NCBI RefSeq assembly: GCF_001953745.1
Contig: NZ_LWLN01000001.1
Coordinates: 806,001 to 870,000, forward strand
Length of the DNA stretch: 64,000 nucleotides
Source of the DNA: Natrinema saccharevitans
GTDB taxonomy: Archaea > Halobacteriota > Halobacteria > Halobacteriales > Natrialbaceae
Direction: 5' to 3'
Positions 43,022-51,464 of this stretch are shown in pieces. The notes below the pieces were generated by a model. That model saw only the letters and a list, made by a program, of their open reading frames with translations. It was not told the DNA's origin and did not search any database. Made by a program: the position numbers and the translations under genes. Each line of letters opens with the position of its first letter. Positions within the stretch are counted from its first letter, which is position 1.

Positions 43022-43924
43022 ATGGACGACGAACGTATTACACCCGTAGAACTTCCCGAACCGAGATACGAGTACGGGGGAGACGACCACGTGTTCGTCG
43101 AACTCGCGGAGGAAATGAGCTTCACGGCCAATTTCAAGGCCATGGCGATCACCCAACAGGTCGCCGATCGAGACATCGAGGGGGTCGTGGAGAACTGTCC
43201 GGCCAACGCGTCCTACATGCTTCGCATCGATCCGGACGTCATCCGGCCGGACGATCTGATCGACGAACTGAAAGCGATCGAGGCGGAGACCGACATCGAG
43301 AACTACGAGTGGGAGACGCGGGTCATCGACGTCCCGGTCCTGTTCGAGGACCCGTGGACCCACGAGACGCTCATGGAGTTTCGCGACCGCCATCAGGACC
43401 CGGACTCGACGGACCTCGAGTACTCTGCTCAGCTCAACGGGTTCGACGACGTCGACTCGTTCATCGACGCGTTCGTCGGCGCACCGCATATGGTGACGAT
43501 GGTCGGGTTCGTTCCGGGACTCCCGTGGTGTTTCCAGATGGTGCCGCGCAGTCAACAGCTGGAAGTGCCCAAATACGTCGAACCGCGGACCGACACGCCC
43601 GGACGCGCGGTCGGTTTCGGTGGCGCGTTCTCGGTCATCTACCCGGTTCAGGGGGCCGGCGGCTACCAGCTGTTCGGTCGCACGCCGGTCGAAGTGCTGG
43701 ACACCGACCGGACGCTGCCCGACTTCCGCGATTCGATGGTGTTCCCGAACCCAGGTGACATCTTGAACTACAGACGGATCGATCGGGCGGAGTACGACGA
43801 AATCCGCGAGGCCGTCGAAGACGGGACCTACGAGTTCGAGTACGAGACGGTGACCTTCTCGCCCGACGAGTTCTTCGAGTCGCCACGCGAATACAACGCC
43901 CGGCTCGTGGAGGGGGAAGCATGA
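43022..43924 (+). CDS. pxpB: 5-oxoprolinase subunit PxpB (KipI family)
   Basis: A 300-residue KipI/allophanate-hydrolase-subunit-1 protein. MVTMVGFVPGLPWCFQMVPR and PGRAVGFGGAFSVIYPVQGA, then GYQLFGRTPVEVLDTDRTLP are the conserved cyclophilin-like core. With PxpC and PxpA it forms the ATP-dependent 5-oxoprolinase that opens pyroglutamate to glutamate. The protein is longer than the roughly 220-residue bacterial forms, with an extended N-terminus. The ATG at 43022 is 26-34 bases after an AT-rich CTATTCATAG, so it is preferred to the TTG at 43007. It overlaps pxpC by four bases (ATGA). Confidence 0.9.
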   Translation: MDDERITPVELPEPRYEYGGDDHVFVELAEEMSFTANFKAMAITQQVADRDIEGVVENCPANASYMLRIDPDVIRPDDLIDELKAIEAETDIENYEWETRVIDVPVLFEDPWTHETLMEFRDRHQDPDSTDLEYSAQLNGFDDVDSFIDAFVGAPHMVTMVGFVPGLPWCFQMVPRSQQLEVPKYVEPRTDTPGRAVGFGGAFSVIYPVQGAGGYQLFGRTPVEVLDTDRTLPDFRDSMVFPNPGDILNYRRIDRAEYDEIREAVEDGTYEFEYETVTFSPDEFFESPREYNARLVEGEA

Positions 43925-44895
43925 TCGAGATCGAAGAGGGCGGTATCGCGACGACGATACAAGATCTCGGACGCACCGGCCACTACCACATCGGAATGCC
44001 GCCGTCGGGCGCGATGGACCGGTACGCACACACGGTCGCCAACTACCTCGTCGGAAACGACGCCGACGCCGCGACCGTCGAGATGACCTATCAGGGCATC
44101 ACGGCGACGTTCCGAGAGGACGCCGTGATCGCGATCACCGGCGCGGACATGTCGCCGAGAGTCAACGGCGATCCGATCGAGACGTGGCGGTCCGTCGCCG
44201 TCGAGGCCGGCGACGAACTCGCCCTCTCGTTCGCGACCGAAGGGGCGCGGGCGTATCTCGCCGTCGCCGGCGGTATCGACGTACCGAAGGTGATGGGCAG
44301 CGGGTCGACGTACACGCTCGTCGGCATCGGTGGCCACGAGGGTCGCGCCCTCGAGGCGGGCGACGAACTGTCGATCGGCGAGTCCAACGACGGCGACGAA
44401 CTGGTCGGAACGCGAGTCGGCGACGAGTACGTCCCCACGTACGCGGACGAGGAGACCGTCCGGATCGTCCTCGGACTGACCGACTACCGGCTGACCGAGG
44501 CGGCGAAGGAGACGCTTTGCAACGCCGAATGGACGGTCTCGTCGGAGGCCGATCGCGTCGGCTACCGGCTCGAGGGACCGGACCTCGAGTTCGAGGAGCG
44601 CGAACAGCCGTTCGGTGCCGGGACCGATCCGTCGAACGTCGTCGATCTCGGCTACCCAATCGGCTCGATCCAGGTACCGAACCAGCCGATCGTCCTGATG
44701 CAGGACGCGGTCACTGGCGGAGGCTACGCGACCGTCGGGACGGTCATCAGCGCCGACCGCGGACTGCTCGCACAGCGACAGACCCACGATTCGGTGTACT
44801 TCGAGGCCGTCGACGTCGACGACGCACACGCCGCCCGCGAGGAGCGCAACGAACGCCTCGAAGCCGTTCGCGCGGCGATCGATGGCGGGATCTGA
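43921..44895 (+). CDS. pxpC: 5-oxoprolinase subunit PxpC (KipA family)
   Basis: A 324-residue KipA/allophanate-hydrolase-subunit-2 protein. Its hallmark opening is IATTIQDLGRTGHYHIGMPP with SGAMDRYAHTVANYLVGNDA; the end PIVLMQDAVTGGGYATVGTV and DRGLLAQRQTHDSVYFEAV is also typical. It pairs with PxpB; in urea carboxylase the homologous parts are fused as the carboxyltransferase domain. Translation is coupled to pxpB through the ATGA overlap. A 7-base-stem hairpin follows the stop. Confidence 0.92.
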   Translation: MIEIEEGGIATTIQDLGRTGHYHIGMPPSGAMDRYAHTVANYLVGNDADAATVEMTYQGITATFREDAVIAITGADMSPRVNGDPIETWRSVAVEAGDELALSFATEGARAYLAVAGGIDVPKVMGSGSTYTLVGIGGHEGRALEAGDELSIGESNDGDELVGTRVGDEYVPTYADEETVRIVLGLTDYRLTEAAKETLCNAEWTVSSEADRVGYRLEGPDLEFEEREQPFGAGTDPSNVVDLGYPIGSIQVPNQPIVLMQDAVTGGGYATVGTVISADRGLLAQRQTHDSVYFEAVDVDDAHAAREERNERLEAVRAAIDGGI

Positions 44896-44898
44896 CAT

Positions 44899-44916
44899 TC
44901 AACTCTCTCGAGTTGA
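44899..44916. terminator. Hairpin after pxpC
   Basis: TCAACTC, a TCTC loop, and GAGTTGA form a perfect 7-base stem four bases after the pxpC stop. It may be a partial terminator, an RNA-processing site or an operator for the biotin-carrier gene. There is no T-run. Confidence 0.4.
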
Positions 44917-44938
44917 CTGAAACAGAGAACAGAACAAA

Positions 44939-44959
44939 GGATATATTCGGTACTGAATA
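44939..44959 (+). promoter_or_regulatory. Biotin-carrier promoter with inverted half-sites
   Basis: The TATA stretch ATATATT (44941-44947) overlaps TATTC-GGTACT-GAATA (44944-44959), an inverted repeat with 5-base arms. The same TATTC/GAATA core is in the lrp operator at 49196-49232. Confidence 0.45.
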
Positions 44960-44976
44960 CAATACGGACGCACACC

Positions 44977-45219
44977 ATGTCCGACAAGACCACGATTACG
45001 TCACCGATGCCGGGCGTCTTCTACCGCCGTCCCGATCCCGATGACCCGCCGTTCGTCGAGCCGGGAGACGAGGTCGAGGAGGGCGAGACGGTCGGACTCG
45101 TCGAAGTCATGAAGAACTTCCACGATATCGAGGCCGACAGTTCGGGGACCGTCGGCGAGTTCCTCGTCGAGGACGAGGCCGAGATCGAGGCCGACCAGCC
45201 GCTCGTCGAGGTCGAGTAA
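44977..45219 (+). CDS. Biotin carboxyl carrier protein-like (80 residues)
   Basis: A single biotinyl/lipoyl domain of 80 residues. It begins MSDKTTITSPMPGVFYRRPD, has EEGETVGLVEVMKNFHDIEA with the candidate biotinyl Lys in EVMK, and closes SSGTVGEFLVEDEAEIEADQ. The residue after the Lys is Asn where acetyl-CoA carboxylase carriers have Met or Leu, a variation I associate with pxp-linked carriers. It lacks the long N-terminal region of usual AccB. It lies between pxpC and pxpA with its own TATA box, and should be loaded by the biotin carboxylase at 46232. Confidence 0.85.
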   Translation: MSDKTTITSPMPGVFYRRPDPDDPPFVEPGDEVEEGETVGLVEVMKNFHDIEADSSGTVGEFLVEDEAEIEADQPLVEVE

Positions 45220-45430
45220 CCGTCCTCGCGGCGTCGCCACAGCGACCGAACCGCCGTCGGCCGACTCCGATCGCGGACTCGAGCCGAGATGGCTCGCCTG
45301 TCGAACCCGCGCTTTCGCTCAGATATATCACCTTCGAGCAATACCGCCTTCTTCACACCTATATTTCATCACCGATTCAGAAGTCGGACAGCGTCCGAAT
45401 TTTTCCGATTCTGTAGACGGGGCGACGGAA

Positions 45431-45438
45431 GATATATG
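45431..45438 (+). promoter_or_regulatory. pxpA TATA box deciding the start codon
   Basis: GATATATG at 45431-45438 is 26-28 bases before the GTG at 45463. It makes the GTG the probable leaderless start and rules out the ATG at 45436, which lies inside the box. Confidence 0.5.
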
Positions 45439-45462
45439 CGAAATCCTGCTATAATTACGCCC

Positions 45463-46224
45463 GTGACGACGATAGACATCAACTGCGATATGGGAGAGAG
45501 TTTCGGGAACTGGCAGATGGGGCGGGACGAGGAAGTCATGCCCTATATCACGTCAGCGAACATCGCAGGGGGGTTCCACGCCGGCGACCCCCACGTCATG
45601 CGCGAGACGGTCTCGCTCGCCGCCGAACACGACGTGGCGATCGGCGTCCATCCGGGACTCCCCGACAGGATGGGGTTCGGCCGGCGGAAGATCGATGCCA
45701 GTCCCGAAGCGGTTCGGGACTACGTCGTGTATCAACTCGGTGCGCTCACCGCGTTCGCGCGCCGCCACGGTGCCGCGGTGCAACACGTCAAGCCCCACGG
45801 CGCGATGTATTCGATGCTCTCGGAGAGCCCGGAACACGCCCGCGCCGCCATGGAGGGGATGCTCGAGGTCGACGACGACCTGATCTACCTCGCGACCGAT
45901 ATGAACATCTACGAGGTCGCACAGGAGGTCGACGGGCTCCGGGCCGTCTTCGAGGGGTACGTCGACTTGGATTACCGGGCCGACCGCTCGCTCATCGTCG
46001 AACGGGAACTCGCGGACCGCGATCCCGAACTCGTGGCCGACCGATTCGTCTCGATCGCGACGGACGGCGTCGTCGAGGCGGCCAACGGGGAAGAGATCGC
46101 CGTCCCCGCCGACAGTATCTGTATCCACGGCGACAATCCGAACGCCGTCGCGATCCTCGAGGCGATCCACGAGCGAGTCGGCGAACACGGGATCGAACTC
46201 GAGTCGCTGTCGGCGATCGCGTAA
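45463..46224 (+). CDS. pxpA: 5-oxoprolinase subunit PxpA (LamB/YcsF family)
   Basis: A 253-residue YcsF-family protein. The GTG start gives VTTIDINCDMGESFGNWQMG, the invariant family opening; then YITSANIAGGFHAGDPHVMR, HPGLPDRMGFGRRKIDASPE, VQHVKPHGAMYSMLSESPEH and the end CIHGDNPNAVAILEAIHERV. It is the likely catalytic or phosphoryl-transfer partner of PxpB/PxpC in ring opening of 5-oxoproline. About 240 bases separate it from the carrier gene, so it has an independent promoter. It is convergent with the biotin carboxylase gene. Confidence 0.93.
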   Translation: MTTIDINCDMGESFGNWQMGRDEEVMPYITSANIAGGFHAGDPHVMRETVSLAAEHDVAIGVHPGLPDRMGFGRRKIDASPEAVRDYVVYQLGALTAFARRHGAAVQHVKPHGAMYSMLSESPEHARAAMEGMLEVDDDLIYLATDMNIYEVAQEVDGLRAVFEGYVDLDYRADRSLIVERELADRDPELVADRFVSIATDGVVEAANGEEIAVPADSICIHGDNPNAVAILEAIHERVGEHGIELESLSAIA

Positions 46225-46231
46225 CGACCGG

Positions 46232-47575
46232 CTACTCGCCCACGAGTTCCCGATCCACGTACTTGGTCGTGTGATCGTTCGCCAGGAACCCCTCGTCTTC
46301 GAGCAACTCGCGGTGGAACGGAACCGTCGTCGGGACGCCCTCGATGGCCGTTTCGTCGAGCGCGCGCTTGCCGCGAGCGATCACCTCCGCTCTGTCTCGC
46401 CCGGTGACGATCAGTTTGCCGAACATCGAGTCGTAGAACGGCGCGATCGAATCGCCCTCGTCGACGCCGTCGTCGACGCGGACGCCGATCCCTCGGGGCG
46501 GTTCGTACGTCGAGAGCGTCCCCGGGAGCGGCGTGAAATCGTTGTCCGGATCCTCGGCGTTGAGTCGGAACTCCATGGCGGCACCTCGCGGTTCGATCTC
46601 GTCTTGGGAAAATGGGAGTTCCTCGCCGGCCGCGACCCGGAGCTGCCACTTCACCAGATCGATTCCAGTGAGTTCCTCCGTCACGGTGTGTTCGACCTGG
46701 ATCCGAGCGTTGACCTCGATGAAGTAGAAGTCGCCGTCTTCGTAGAGGAACTCGACCGTCCCGGCGTTGACGTAGTCCGCTGCCGCCGCGCCGCGACGGG
46801 CCGCCGCACAGATCGCGTCGCGGGTCTCGTCGTCCAGCACGGGGGAGGGCGACTCCTCGACGAGTTTCTGCTGGCGGCGCTGAACGGTGCAGTCCCGTTC
46901 GCCGAAATGGCGGACGTTCCCGTGTTCGTCGCCCATGATCTGGACCTCGATGTGACGCGGCCCCTCGAGGAAGCGCTCGAGATAGACGTTGGGATTGTCG
47001 AAGTACGCGTCCCCTTCTCGGATCGCTTCCTGTAGCTTCGATTCGATCTGTGACGGCTCGTGAACGATTTTGAGCCCGCGGCCGCCGCCACCGCCGTCGG
47101 CCTTGATCGCGACCGGGTACCCGTGTTCGTCCGCGAACGCTTCGACCGCCTCCGGCGACGTGATCGGCTCGGTCGTCCCCGGAACGATGGGAACGTCGGC
47201 CTCGGCCATGATCTTGCGCGCTTTGGTCTTCTCGCCGAAGTCGGCCATCACGTCGCTCGGCGGCCCGATCCACTCGAACTCGCTTTCCTCGACGGCGGCC
47301 GCGAACGACTCGTTCTCCGCGAGGAACCCGTATCCAGGATGGATCGCGTCGGCGTCGGCCGCCCGTGCGGCCTCGAGCAACGCGTCCTGGTCCAAGTAGC
47401 TCTCCTTCGCCTTCGAGGGACCGATATGGTAGGCCTCGTCAGCCAGTCGGACGTGTTTCGCGTCCTCGTCCGCATCGCTGTAGACGGCGACCGAGTCGAT
47501 TCCGAGATCCGCACACGCCTGCGCGATTCGAACGGCGATCTCCTCGCGGTTCGCGATCAGGACCTTTTCGAACAC
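46232..47575 (-). CDS. Biotin carboxylase (AccC-like)
   Basis: A 447-residue ATP-grasp biotin carboxylase from a GTG at 47575 ([20 protein letters not shown]). Motifs: [14 protein letters not shown], the ATP-binding glycine loop [40 protein letters not shown], and the catalytic [20 protein letters not shown]. It is complete and unfused: no carrier or carboxyltransferase domain. It should charge the 80-residue carrier with CO2. No acyl-CoA carboxyltransferase gene is present nearby, which points to PxpB/PxpC as transferase partners (inference). TATA-like ATTTATCATTTAA lies at 47596-47608. Confidence 0.88.
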
Positions 47576-47736: not shown

Positions 47737-49071
47737 TCAGGCGACCGTCTCGAGCGCGGCCCTGAGTTCGTCGACGGCGTACTGAAGCTGCTCGCGCGAG
47801 ATGGAAAGCGGCGGCTGGAAGCGCATGACGTTCTTGTAGTAGCCGCCGACCCCCATCACGACGTTCGATTCGTCGCGGAGGTAGTCGCTGACGGCCGACG
47901 CCAGCTCGGGGTCCGGCTTCGGGGCGACGTTCTGTGGCCCCGTCGTCCCCGGCTCGACGAGTTCGACGCCCCACATCAGTCCGAGCCCGCGGGTCTGACC
48001 GACGACCTCGTACTCGCCCTCGAGCGCGCCGAGTTCGTCGGCGAGCCACCGGCCCTGCTCGCGGGCGTCGTCGACGATCCCGTCCTGCAGTTCGTCGATC
48101 GTCGCCAGCGCGGCGGCGCAGGCGACCGGGTTGCCGCCGAACGTCGAGAGGTGGTCGCCGGACTCGAAGGCGTCAGCGATCTCCGCGGGGGCGGTAAAGG
48201 CCCCGAGCGGCAGCCCGTTCGCGATCCCCTTGGCCTGGGTCAGGATGTCCGGTTCGACGTCGAAGTGGCTGCTCGCGAACAGCTCGCCCGTCCGGCCGTA
48301 GCCGGTCTGGACCTCGTCGACGATCAGCAACGCCCCGTGGTCGTGGGCGACTTCCTGGACTCGTTCGAGCCAGCCCTCCGGCGGGACGACGATTCCGGCT
48401 TCGCCCATGACCGGTTCGACGACGATCGCCGCCAGGTCGCCGCTCGTATGCGATCCGATGACACGCTCGAGTTCGTCGGCGCAGTCGGCGTCGCACTCCC
48501 CGCCGTCACAGCGCGGGCACCGGTAGCCGTAGGGTGGTGCGGTGTGGGCGACGTCGTTGAGCGTCGGGGCCATCCCCTGCTTGTAGGACTTGTTGCCCGT
48601 CAGCGCGAGACTGCCAAGCGTCCGGCCGTGAAACCCCATTTCGAGGGCGATGACCTCCTTCGACCCGGTGTACTTCCGTGCGAGTTTGACCGCGCCCTCG
48701 ACCGACTCCGTCCCGGAGTTACAGAAGAACGTCTTCTCGAGGTCGCCCGGCGTCACCTCCGCGATCCGCTCGGCGAGGTCGGCGACCGGCTCGTTGGGAT
48801 GGACGTACGAACAGCCGTGGACGAACTCCTCGAGCTGGGCTTTGGCGGCGTCGACGACGGCCTCGTTCCCGTGGCCGACGTTCGTCACTGCGATCCCCGC
48901 GAAGACGTCGAGGTACTCGTTGCCCTCGACGTCCTCGAGCGTACAGCCCGAGGCCCGTTTGACGGGGATATCGAGCGATTTCCAGATCGGCATCATGTGG
49001 TCGTCGTAGCTCGAGACGACGGCCGCGTTCGAGTCCCGACCGTCGGACGGCTCGAATTTCTGCTCGGACAT
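47737..49071 (-). CDS. Class III aminotransferase (GABA/ornithine-type)
   Basis: A 444-residue PLP enzyme. TFFCNSGTESVEGAVKLARK, LEMGFHGRTLGSLALTGNKS, LLIVDEVQTGYGRTGELFAS, the lysine in LTQAKGIANGLPLGAFTAPA and HLSTFGGNPVACAAALATID are standard for the class. A cysteine-bearing insertion (YRCPRCDGGECDADCADELE) is an oddity that may bind zinc. Adjacent to the 5-oxoproline genes it could move the amino group of the glutamate formed, or act on GABA. A TATA-like stretch TATAATTTATTA at 49095-49106 precedes it. Confidence 0.85.
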   Translation of the reverse strand: MSEQKFEPSDGRDSNAAVVSSYDDHMMPIWKSLDIPVKRASGCTLEDVEGNEYLDVFAGIAVTNVGHGNEAVVDAAKAQLEEFVHGCSYVHPNEPVADLAERIAEVTPGDLEKTFFCNSGTESVEGAVKLARKYTGSKEVIALEMGFHGRTLGSLALTGNKSYKQGMAPTLNDVAHTAPPYGYRCPRCDGGECDADCADELERVIGSHTSGDLAAIVVEPVMGEAGIVVPPEGWLERVQEVAHDHGALLIVDEVQTGYGRTGELFASSHFDVEPDILTQAKGIANGLPLGAFTAPAEIADAFESGDHLSTFGGNPVACAAALATIDELQDGIVDDAREQGRWLADELGALEGEYEVVGQTRGLGLMWGVELVEPGTTGPQNVAPKPDPELASAVSDYLRDESNVVMGVGGYYKNVMRFQPPLSISREQLQYAVDELRAALETVA

Positions 49072-49238: not shown

Positions 49239-49730
49239 ATGGACGAGCGAAACGTTCGTATCCTCCAGGCCGTGGCGGAACTCGGGACGGGGAGTCCCGA
49301 CGAGATCTCGGAGTACACGGACATTCCGAAATCGACCGTCCACTACCGGCTCACGAAGCTCAAGGAAGACGGCGTCGTGAGCAACGACCTCTTGGACGTC
49401 GACCTCGAGGCGTTGGGACTGGAGATCACGGTCGTCACGGAGGTCATCGCCGAGTACGACGAACAGTATCACGAGGACGTCGGGGAGCAACTCGCCGCCA
49501 TCGAGGGGGTCAATCAGGTGTATTTCACGATGGGCGATACCGATTTCATCGTCATCGCGCATCTGGCGGACCGGGAGATGGTCCACCGTCTCATCAGCGA
49601 TTACGAGGCGATCGACGAGGTCGTTCGCACGAGTTCGCAGTTCGTGGTCGAAACGGTCAAGGACGAACCGCATCCGCTGAACGACTTCGAACTCGAGACG
49701 GTAGTCGAGTCGATCGCGGACGAGGACTGA
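49239..49730 (+). CDS. Lrp/AsnC-family regulator
   Basis: A 163-residue regulator. The N-terminal winged helix (MDERNVRILQAVAELGTGSP, then ISEYTDIPKSTVHYRLTKLK) is followed by a RAM-type ligand domain (LEITVVTEVIAEYDEQYHED ... VYFTMGDTDFIVIAHLADRE). Such proteins sense amino acids. It sits between the aminotransferase and permease genes of the 5-oxoproline locus and has an inverted repeat around its own TATA box, so it probably controls this locus and itself. Ligand is unknown; 5-oxoproline or glutamate are natural candidates. Confidence 0.92.
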   Translation: MDERNVRILQAVAELGTGSPDEISEYTDIPKSTVHYRLTKLKEDGVVSNDLLDVDLEALGLEITVVTEVIAEYDEQYHEDVGEQLAAIEGVNQVYFTMGDTDFIVIAHLADREMVHRLISDYEAIDEVVRTSSQFVVETVKDEPHPLNDFELETVVESIADED

Positions 49731-49749: not shown

Positions 49750-51147
49750 TTACTCGAGTTCGCTCGGCTCCAGATCGGCCAGTTCGATCTCCGAGTCCGT
49801 CGAGGAGATTCCATACAGCACGACGCCGAGGAGCGCCCAGCAGAGGACGATCGCCCACTCGTAGGGCCAGACGAGCGCCGACGGCCCGCCCGGAAGATAG
49901 AGGCCGATGAAGCCGAGCGTCAGGACCAGCCCCGCGGCCCCGAACGCGTATCCGAACGGGAGCTTCAGCGGGCGGTTCAGGCCGGGCTCTCGGTAGCGGA
50001 GAACGAGGAACGAGACGACGACGAGGAACCAGGCGACGACGAGGCCGAGCCCGCTCGCGTTGACGATCCAGACCAGCATCTGTTCGCCGAACAGCGGCGC
50101 GAAGATCGAGAGCCCGCCGATGAGGACGATCGCGGTCGAGGGCGTGTTGTACTCGGGGTGGAGCGCGTTGATCCGTCGCGGAATCATCCCCGAATCGGCG
50201 AGCGCGAAGACGGCGCGACTGGCCCCCAGCAGGAAGGAGTTCCAGCTCGTGAGGATGCCCGCGATGCCAGCAAGCGCCATGATACGGCCGATCAGCTGAC
50301 TGCTGAAGATCGTTTCCATGGCCGCGGCGGCCGGCAGCGGGCTCTCGACGAGTTCGACGCCGGGCATGGCCTGCCCGGACGCCCAGATCACGCCGATGTA
50401 AAACAGCGCGGCAAGCGAGACTGCCGCCGGAATGAGAAGTCCGATGACGCGGGGCGGGACGTCGGCTTCCTCGGCGGACTGGGGAATGACGTCGAAGCCG
50501 ACGAACATGAACGGCGTCATGATCGCGACCGTGGCGACGCCGGCCGTCCCGACGTCCGACAGCGGCGGGTTCGGCTGGGTCTGTCCGTTGAACAGGGCCC
50601 CGATGACGAGCATGACACCCGCGAGGCCGATGACGAGCGTTAGCAGCGTCTGGAACTGTGCCGCGGGTTTCACGCCGCGGTAGTTGAGCCCCGTCATCAC
50701 GATCGCGCCGATCCCGCCGACGAGGATCCAGGACGCGTACACCGGCTCCCCGGCGACCGTCCAGAGTTCGAGGACGTTGAATCCGGGCACGATAAACGCC
50801 ATCGCGGACGGCAGCGCCACGACCTCGAAAACGACGACACCGACGTAGCCGAGGACGAGCGACCACGTACACACGAACGACCAGAGCGGGCCGAGCGCGC
50901 GGAAACTGTACACGTGTTCGCCGCCGACGAACGGCATCGCGGACGTGAGTTCACCGTATATCAGTCCGACGACGCATACCATGATCGCGCCCACGACGAA
51001 GCCGAGTACCGATCCGGCCACGCCCGCTTCGTCGATCCAGAACCCGGTCTGGATGATCCATCCCCAGCCGATCATCGCGCCGAACGCGAGGACGAAGAGG
51101 TCTTTTTTCGTCAGGATCCGCTCGAAGTCACTGTCGTTTCCTGCCAT
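49750..51147 (-). CDS. APC-family amino acid permease
   Basis: A 465-residue permease with about 12 membrane helices. LTKKDLFVLAFGAMIGWGWI is the APC first-helix signature with the unwound GxG-type ligand segment, and later AIMTPFMFVGFDVIPQSAEE, GILTSWNSFLLGASRAVFAL and SGMIPRRINALHPEYNTPST are conserved. The location suggests uptake of glutamate-family compounds or 5-oxoproline (inference). The ATG at 51147 (MAGNDSDFERILTKKDLFVL) is preferred to 51186. It is convergent with lrp, 19 bases away. Confidence 0.9.
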   Translation of the reverse strand: MAGNDSDFERILTKKDLFVLAFGAMIGWGWIIQTGFWIDEAGVAGSVLGFVVGAIMVCVVGLIYGELTSAMPFVGGEHVYSFRALGPLWSFVCTWSLVLGYVGVVVFEVVALPSAMAFIVPGFNVLELWTVAGEPVYASWILVGGIGAIVMTGLNYRGVKPAAQFQTLLTLVIGLAGVMLVIGALFNGQTQPNPPLSDVGTAGVATVAIMTPFMFVGFDVIPQSAEEADVPPRVIGLLIPAAVSLAALFYIGVIWASGQAMPGVELVESPLPAAAAMETIFSSQLIGRIMALAGIAGILTSWNSFLLGASRAVFALADSGMIPRRINALHPEYNTPSTAIVLIGGLSIFAPLFGEQMLVWIVNASGLGLVVAWFLVVVSFLVLRYREPGLNRPLKLPFGYAFGAAGLVLTLGFIGLYLPGGPSALVWPYEWAIVLCWALLGVVLYGISSTDSEIELADLEPSELE

Positions 51148-51464
51148 ACCACTCAGTGCCAAATGATGGGTGTTAAGTCTAACCATTCAAAAGCGACCAG
51201 GATAATATTCCATATAATCACTACATATTGGACAATGCACAACTCTCACCGATCGTACCGGCAATCGAAGCCGACGGACCGACGGACCGGCCGTCGTCTC
51301 GCCACCGGAGTCGTGGCCGGGCGGATCGAGCGTCGAAGGGACGGCAGTAGGTGTCGGCTTCGACGGCCACCGTTACTCAAACGACCGCCTACTCCGCGTA
51401 ACCACCTGCTACCGCTCGAGTAGCAAACTCATATATAGGATAGCCGATCCGGTATCGCAGGTCG
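51148..51464. other. Intergenic region with divergent promoters
   Basis: About 317 bases. Near the permease it holds the AT-rich GGATAATATTCC and CATATAATC (51209-51230), and near the other end CATATATAGG (51430-51439), the likely promoter of the leader frame at 51465. Nothing else was recognised. Confidence 0.4.

Follow-up and report, generated by a model that had tools for sequence, protein, structure and literature searches.

The stretch of DNA considered here, a window of 64,000 nucleotides from the 3.98 Mb genome of the haloarchaeon Natrinema saccharevitans, carries five contiguous genes for a PxpB-like and a PxpC-like carboxyltransferase (CT) subunit, a small biotin carboxyl carrier protein (BCCP), a PxpA-like hydrolase of the LamB/YcsF family and a biotin carboxylase (BC) (Table 1). 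All five are intact, with an unfused BC and an EVMK site in the carrier, as an earlier note drawn from the sequence of the window had described them. The PxpC-like gene overlaps the end of the PxpB-like gene by 4 nucleotides, while the PxpA-like gene starts at either a GTG (45463) or an ATG (45436). Its product, present in a single copy in the window genome, falls within PxpA (LamB/YcsF) of the PxpABC system by its NF003814 score and keeps the His, Asp and Lys positions common to E. coli PxpA. All 12 catalytic positions checked in the BC, matched to what we take to be their E. coli counterparts, are intact and no carrier is fused to it; both the BC with intact catalytic residues and the carrier with a biotinylation site that mark urea-carboxylase-type systems are present. 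The BC gene converges on pxpA across a gap of 7 nucleotides, and the five genes, although contiguous, do not form a single operon in the window. The cluster probably encodes a five-part biotin-dependent lactam carboxylase/hydrolase, in effect a urea carboxylase whose parts are divided among separate proteins and combined with a hydrolase of the LamB type.

Table 1. Genes of the cluster and its flank, with positions in the window and profile matches (bit scores are given against model cut-offs).
Feature	Position	Strand	Profile evidence
PxpB-like, CT C/D subunit, 300 aa	43022-43924	+	PF02682 (CT_C_D), E 1e-37
PxpC-like, CT A/B subunit, 324 aa	43921-44895	+	PF02626 (CT_A_B), E 1e-89
Biotin carboxyl carrier protein, 80 aa, EVMK (Lys46)	44977-45219	+	NF005457, 108.5 vs cut-off 87; PF00364
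PxpA-like (LamB/YcsF) hydrolase	about 45463-46224	+	PF03746, E 6e-88; NF003814, 298.5 vs cut-off 226
Biotin carboxylase, unfused, 447 aa	46232-47575	-	NF006367, 615 vs cut-off 597; PF00289/02786/02785
Class III aminotransferase	47737-49071	- (BC strand)	PF00202, E 2.5e-114
Lrp/AsnC-type regulator	49239-49730	+	PF01037
Amino acid permease family transporter	49750-51186	-	PF13520

Judged from its sequence, the PxpB/PxpC-like pair is non-canonical and falls in one group with urea carboxylase. Against the PxpB equivalog TIGR00370, whose cut-off is 145.55, the PxpB-like protein obtains 70 bits; its score against the urea carboxylase profile is 104 bits. Its partner reaches 222 bits against the PxpC equivalog NF045499, whose cut-off of 500 is high enough that distant true PxpC members could miss it, and 239 bits against urea carboxylase. 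TIGR02712, which describes a single BC-CT-carrier polypeptide, is not reached by these four separate proteins, the best part obtaining 495 of the 1303.85 bits needed. In the urea amidolyase of K. lactis, Lys1605 is the likely general base of the carboxyltransferase, and without it the enzyme is severely inhibited (PMC5770610). Lys184 of the PxpB-like protein (VPKYVEPRT) aligns with this residue, and lysine occupies the position in 81 of 81 relatives, in all 18 surveyed haloarchaea and in 11 of 11 bacterial urea carboxylases, whereas arginine is found there in all 36 canonical PxpB proteins and also in M. smegmatis. The CT A/B and C/D parts and the general-base lysine of urea-carboxylase-type members (PF02626, PF02682, K184) are all present in the pair. 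An insertion around PWTHETLMEFRDRHQDP in the PxpB-like protein and another around GAGTDPSN in the PxpC-like protein are each matched in urea carboxylase and missing from canonical PxpB and PxpC, respectively. For each subunit, a quick tree made without bootstrap places the family, two divergent Lys-type pairs and urea carboxylase apart from all canonical sequences, with a support of 99 in the Shimodaira-Hasegawa-like approximate likelihood ratio test (SH-aLRT). Modelled with AlphaFold2 (pLDDT 84.5), the PxpB-like protein finds its best match in urea carboxylase 3va7 (Z 24.5 over 279 residues, root mean square deviation 3.2), with a weaker match to E. coli YbgJ (Z 18.0 over 200 residues).

The same genes are found together well beyond the window. 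A search for the PxpB-like family in one genome collection returned at least 555 relatives, of which the best 80 were fetched, and 68 of these 80 have PxpA, carrier, BC, PxpB-like and PxpC-like genes all within about 8 kb, many of the remaining 12 loci being cut by contig ends. The grouping is therefore not a product of chance, and the co-occurrence of carrier and BC that the earlier note proposed to look for across archaeal and bacterial loci is borne out. Five-gene loci occur in Halobacteria, Rubrobacter and other Actinomycetota, Bacillota, and Alpha- and Betaproteobacteria, with the order B-C-carrier-BC-A in Bacilli, A-carrier-BC-B-C in Proteobacteria and many arrangements in haloarchaea. 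The haloarchaeal loci (L040-L057) keep the five genes as a group, with almost no constraint on their order or strand; annotated plasmid copies of the cluster are tight operons. A BC or carrier flanks 60 of 60 full-length loci (BC in 57) as against 9 of 36 canonical pxp loci of the same genomes (Fisher p 2e-16, uncorrected for shared descent). The PxpB-like gene is present in 19 of 194 Halobacteria genomes, a 20th match lying below the cut-off; all 19 have an orthologue of the unfused BC, and the 18 best BC matches all fall in those genomes. PxpA occurs in 23 of the 194, including all 19 PxpB-positive ones. The other four haloarchaea (G017, G072, G086, G173) have a PxpA homologue 69-72% identical and no PxpB match. 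All 77 related carriers keep the V-M-K core of the biotinylation site (EVMK in 67, GVMK in 10), and a gene for the BioY biotin transporter adjoins five of six Rubrobacter loci and one Bacilli locus. In some Brevibacillus/Aneurinibacillus loci (L092, L096, L097, L100, L220) the cluster is accompanied, at a distance of about 5-7 kb, by another, divergent Lys-type pair, a layout that looks as if two transferases used one BC, carrier and PxpA jointly.

The BC and carrier could instead belong to an acetyl-CoA or propionyl-CoA carboxylase that merely adjoins an ordinary 5-oxoprolinase. This would agree with their profile names, which say acetyl-CoA carboxylase, and with an orphan acyl-CoA carboxyltransferase on contig C2 (C2:99005-100471, L019), yet it is highly improbable in view of how biotin enzymes are distributed in the genome. 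Its other two BCs, of three in all, each form one chain with a BCCP and lie near an acyl-CoA carboxyltransferase of their own, and the sole unfused BC and the sole stand-alone 80-residue carrier of its type are those at the cluster. Searching the window by tblastn with three acyl-CoA carboxyltransferases from the same genome returned none, in keeping with the earlier note, and none was found in 103 related loci, so that a PF01039 partner for the cluster BC, which the note had named as evidence that would speak against a lactam carboxylase, is absent from the window and from all 103. The linkage to a urea-carboxylase-type pair also holds over several phyla despite reshuffled gene order, and archaeal lipids require no fatty acid synthesis. 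The orphan on C2 is unlinked to the cluster and without an adjacent BC or carrier; it probably borrows a fused BC-carrier. It adjoins an AMP-ligase gene and an IclR-type regulator. A biotin ligase family gene is present in the window genome. As for the names, NF005457 (PRK07051, named acetyl-CoA carboxylase) matches the carrier above cut-off, and the name looks wrong for such members; in annotated relatives the PxpC-like protein is called a biotin-dependent carboxyltransferase family protein by NCBI.

Several observations weigh against a biotin-dependent lactam carboxylase. The PxpC-like model fits YbgK (Z 38.4) and urea amidolyase (Z 37.7) about equally. Canonical PxpB and PxpC adopt this fold too, and reportedly use ATP but no biotin to open 5-oxoproline; the fold alone is therefore no proof of carboxylation. 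The BC of the window is convergent, so that its co-expression with the other four genes is only putative; the linkage counts are uncorrected for shared descent, and neighbouring genes vary by lineage. Two Lys-type pairs, in Pseudonocardia and Bacillus norwichensis (L217, L219), have no BC or carrier within 7 kb, although by analogy with PDB 9yx5 they may borrow another BC. Some Arg-type loci carry BC and carrier, and lysine and BC track each other imperfectly. The orphan carboxyltransferase on contig C2 leaves a small doubt. The idea that lysine or arginine perfectly predicts BC neighbours was rejected, given the two Lys-type pairs that lack them and the BC or carrier present at 9 of the 36 Arg loci. 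The canonical Arg-type pxp loci that have a BC, and mostly a carrier too (L063, L065, L194, L197, L200, L203, L204, L207, L208, L212), amount to a distinct, second case in which 5-oxoprolinase genes are associated with biotin carboxylase.

The shared fold also leaves room for an ordinary ATP-dependent 5-oxoprolinase in which BC and carrier had a regulatory role or served as a source of carboxyphosphate or CO2, biotin transfer playing no part; for an unrelated caprolactamase, a route through carboxyphosphate has been put forward (PMC8453981). Such a role is very unlikely here, since the carrier is strictly conserved with an invariant V-M-K site, the pair has the lysine and insertions of urea carboxylase, and BioY genes are among the neighbours.

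Conserved linkage, the urea-carboxylase-specific lysine and insertions, the two trees and the structure match together favour a split biotin-dependent carboxylase working with PxpA, and they uphold the suggestion of the earlier note that the four proteins form a urea-carboxylase-like enzyme of this kind. As a biotin-dependent carboxylase the cluster is well supported by its predicted proteins; we infer further that the five parts form one enzyme, that the carboxyl group goes to a lactam and that this lactam is neutral. In the proposed scheme, the biotin of the small carrier would be carboxylated by the BC at the expense of ATP and bicarbonate, and the PxpB-like/PxpC-like pair would then pass the carboxyl on to the amide group of a cyclic amide, with Lys184 as the general base as in urea carboxylase. 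The PxpA-like protein would then hydrolyse the activated ring and the resulting N-carboxy amino acid would lose CO2, for a predicted net reaction of lactam, ATP and water to an open-chain amino acid, ADP and phosphate. The sequence of events would parallel that of urea carboxylase followed by allophanate hydrolase.

With regard to the substrate, a lactam or cyclic amide other than 5-oxoproline appears reasonably likely, and 5-oxoproline itself, which the earlier note had named, is a doubtful candidate. As originally put, that assignment is not sustained: the curated cut-offs are failed, canonical PxpB is co-resident in most of the genomes checked and the neighbouring genes suggest another lactam. 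PxpB above its curated cut-off is found in 22 of 35 genomes with the cluster, which argues for a second substrate. A molybdenum (Mo) hydroxylase lies near 30 of 102 cluster loci (13 of 17 in Bacilli), a class III aminotransferase near 27 of 102 and an aldehyde dehydrogenase near a few of them; among the 36 canonical loci there is no Mo hydroxylase, no class III aminotransferase and one aldehyde dehydrogenase. At one actinobacterial locus (L087, grouped with Rubrobacter) the aminotransferase passes the cut-off for gamma-aminobutyrate (GABA) transaminase (562 vs 506.65), and in Ruegeria an annotated GABA transaminase and succinate-semialdehyde dehydrogenase lie beside the cluster. In some hosts, the Mo hydroxylase may make a lactam next to the ring nitrogen, which the five-gene system would open and the aminotransferase and dehydrogenase would finish. 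The name LamB derives from lactam (2-pyrrolidinone) use in Aspergillus. With less assurance, the neighbouring genes would favour a neutral lactam of the 2-pyrrolidinone type over 5-oxoproline, the product then being an omega-amino acid. A periplasmic binding protein annotated as TorT, found downstream of the cluster at L060, L061, L136 and 18 other proteobacterial or actinobacterial loci and followed by a sugar-type ABC transporter in L060 and L061, may be a substrate importer.

The same machinery could also act on 5-oxoproline, as a biotin-dependent 5-oxoprolinase that replaces plain PxpABC and yields glutamate. The PxpA-like protein, being above the cut-off of the PxpA subfamily model and keeping the positions common to E. 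coli PxpA, is compatible with this, as is the absence of canonical PxpB from the 5 haloarchaeal genomes checked; in the window genome the cluster PxpB-like protein is the only one. Judging from these gene contents, 5-oxoproline would stay an option in haloarchaea, the less likely of two that are live. The idea is nevertheless unlikely overall, as canonical PxpB exceeds its cut-off in those 22 of 35 cluster-bearing genomes, three hydantoinase B/oxoprolinase genes of the window genome could act on 5-oxoproline or hydantoins, and glutamate as the product calls for no class III aminotransferase, aldehyde dehydrogenase or Mo hydroxylase, all of which recur at cluster loci, the aminotransferase and the Mo hydroxylase at the frequencies given above and at none of the 36 canonical loci.

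For the cluster of the window itself, the link to a lactam pathway is weaker. No Mo hydroxylase lies at the locus, the two MoCoBD_1 matches of the window genome both being on contig C2, and the aminotransferase beside the BC fails the GABA transaminase model TIGR00700 (344.5 of 506.65), which makes GABA as the product a guess. This aminotransferase is a probable pathway partner; it adjoins the BC also in the related Natrialbaceae L052, L054 and L056, and L053 has an aminotransferase remnant. The Lrp/AsnC-type regulator, retained in all four of these relatives, is probably a regulator of the pathway, and the amino acid permease, retained in L054, is a possible partner.

The proposed lactam carboxylase resembles several known systems without coinciding with any of them. 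It shares with urea carboxylase (K. lactis urea amidolyase, Oleomonas and bacterial Uca; TIGR02712) the BC, the carrier, the CT fold, the general-base lysine, two common insertions and a joint grouping in both trees. It differs in consisting of four separate proteins rather than one chain, in a BC nearer the AccC group (615 vs 495 bits) and in a LamB-type hydrolase as partner in place of allophanate hydrolase, with a presumably cyclic substrate. In 2011 it was noted that bacteria and Thermococcales have a form of the urea carboxylase transferase split over two genes, its function then unknown (PMC3199775). As in canonical PxpABC (E. coli YbgJKL, B. subtilis), three homologous families are clustered and the conserved site of PxpA is kept, but the PxpB/C-like proteins fall below the equivalog cut-offs, have lysine for arginine and extra insertions, and are accompanied by BC and carrier. 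The same five kinds of gene meet in Arg-type pxp loci of R. etli (p42c) and Lactiplantibacillus, which differ in a canonical-type PxpB with arginine, no urea-carboxylase insert and a position on another branch. In S. aureus, pxpB, pxpC, pxpA, accB and accC are among the genes of a six-gene operon whose accBC has been assigned to fatty acid synthesis (PMC11315280). This likeness is one of gene content, with the Lys/Arg type left aside; a broken S. aureus plasmid fragment (L070) was left out of the residue comparison. A precedent for the docking of PxpC/PxpB homologues on a biotin carboxylase complex comes from PDB 9yx5, titled as an M. smegmatis long chain acyl-CoA carboxylase complex with MSMEG_0435-MSMEG_0436 bound, although that pair has an Arg-type PxpB and borrows a shared BC-carrier subunit. 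The caprolactamase CapAB and the hydantoinase/oxoprolinase family HyuAB open lactams with ATP, as is proposed for the cluster, yet they are unrelated proteins without biotin (PMC8453981). On biotin together with pxp genes or lactams, only the S. aureus operon and caprolactamase papers were found; no description of the five-part enzyme was found in the literature searched, which did not extend to the 2017 PxpABC paper, and priority is not established.

There is perhaps an even chance that the cluster represents a new and widespread class of biotin enzyme that, by means of a split transferase of the urea carboxylase type and a LamB hydrolase, primes stable lactams for hydrolysis by biotin-dependent carboxylation, within the breakdown of N-heterocycles, and that a single BC, carrier and PxpA serve two transferase pairs with different substrates in some Bacilli. 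The substrates of known biotin-dependent carboxylases are acyl-CoA thioesters, 2-oxo acids (pyruvate, for example) and urea. If the proposal is true, lactams would be an added substrate class for these enzymes and carboxylation a new route to breaking very stable amide bonds, with a bearing on the breakdown of lactam solvents and nylon monomers. Labels would be corrected at at least 555 loci now called acetyl-CoA carboxylase, 5-oxoprolinase or allophanate hydrolase, and this would change which archaea and bacteria seem to need a second acetyl-CoA carboxylase. One protein fold would then harbor both a biotin and a biotin-free solution, set apart by lysine or arginine at a single position.

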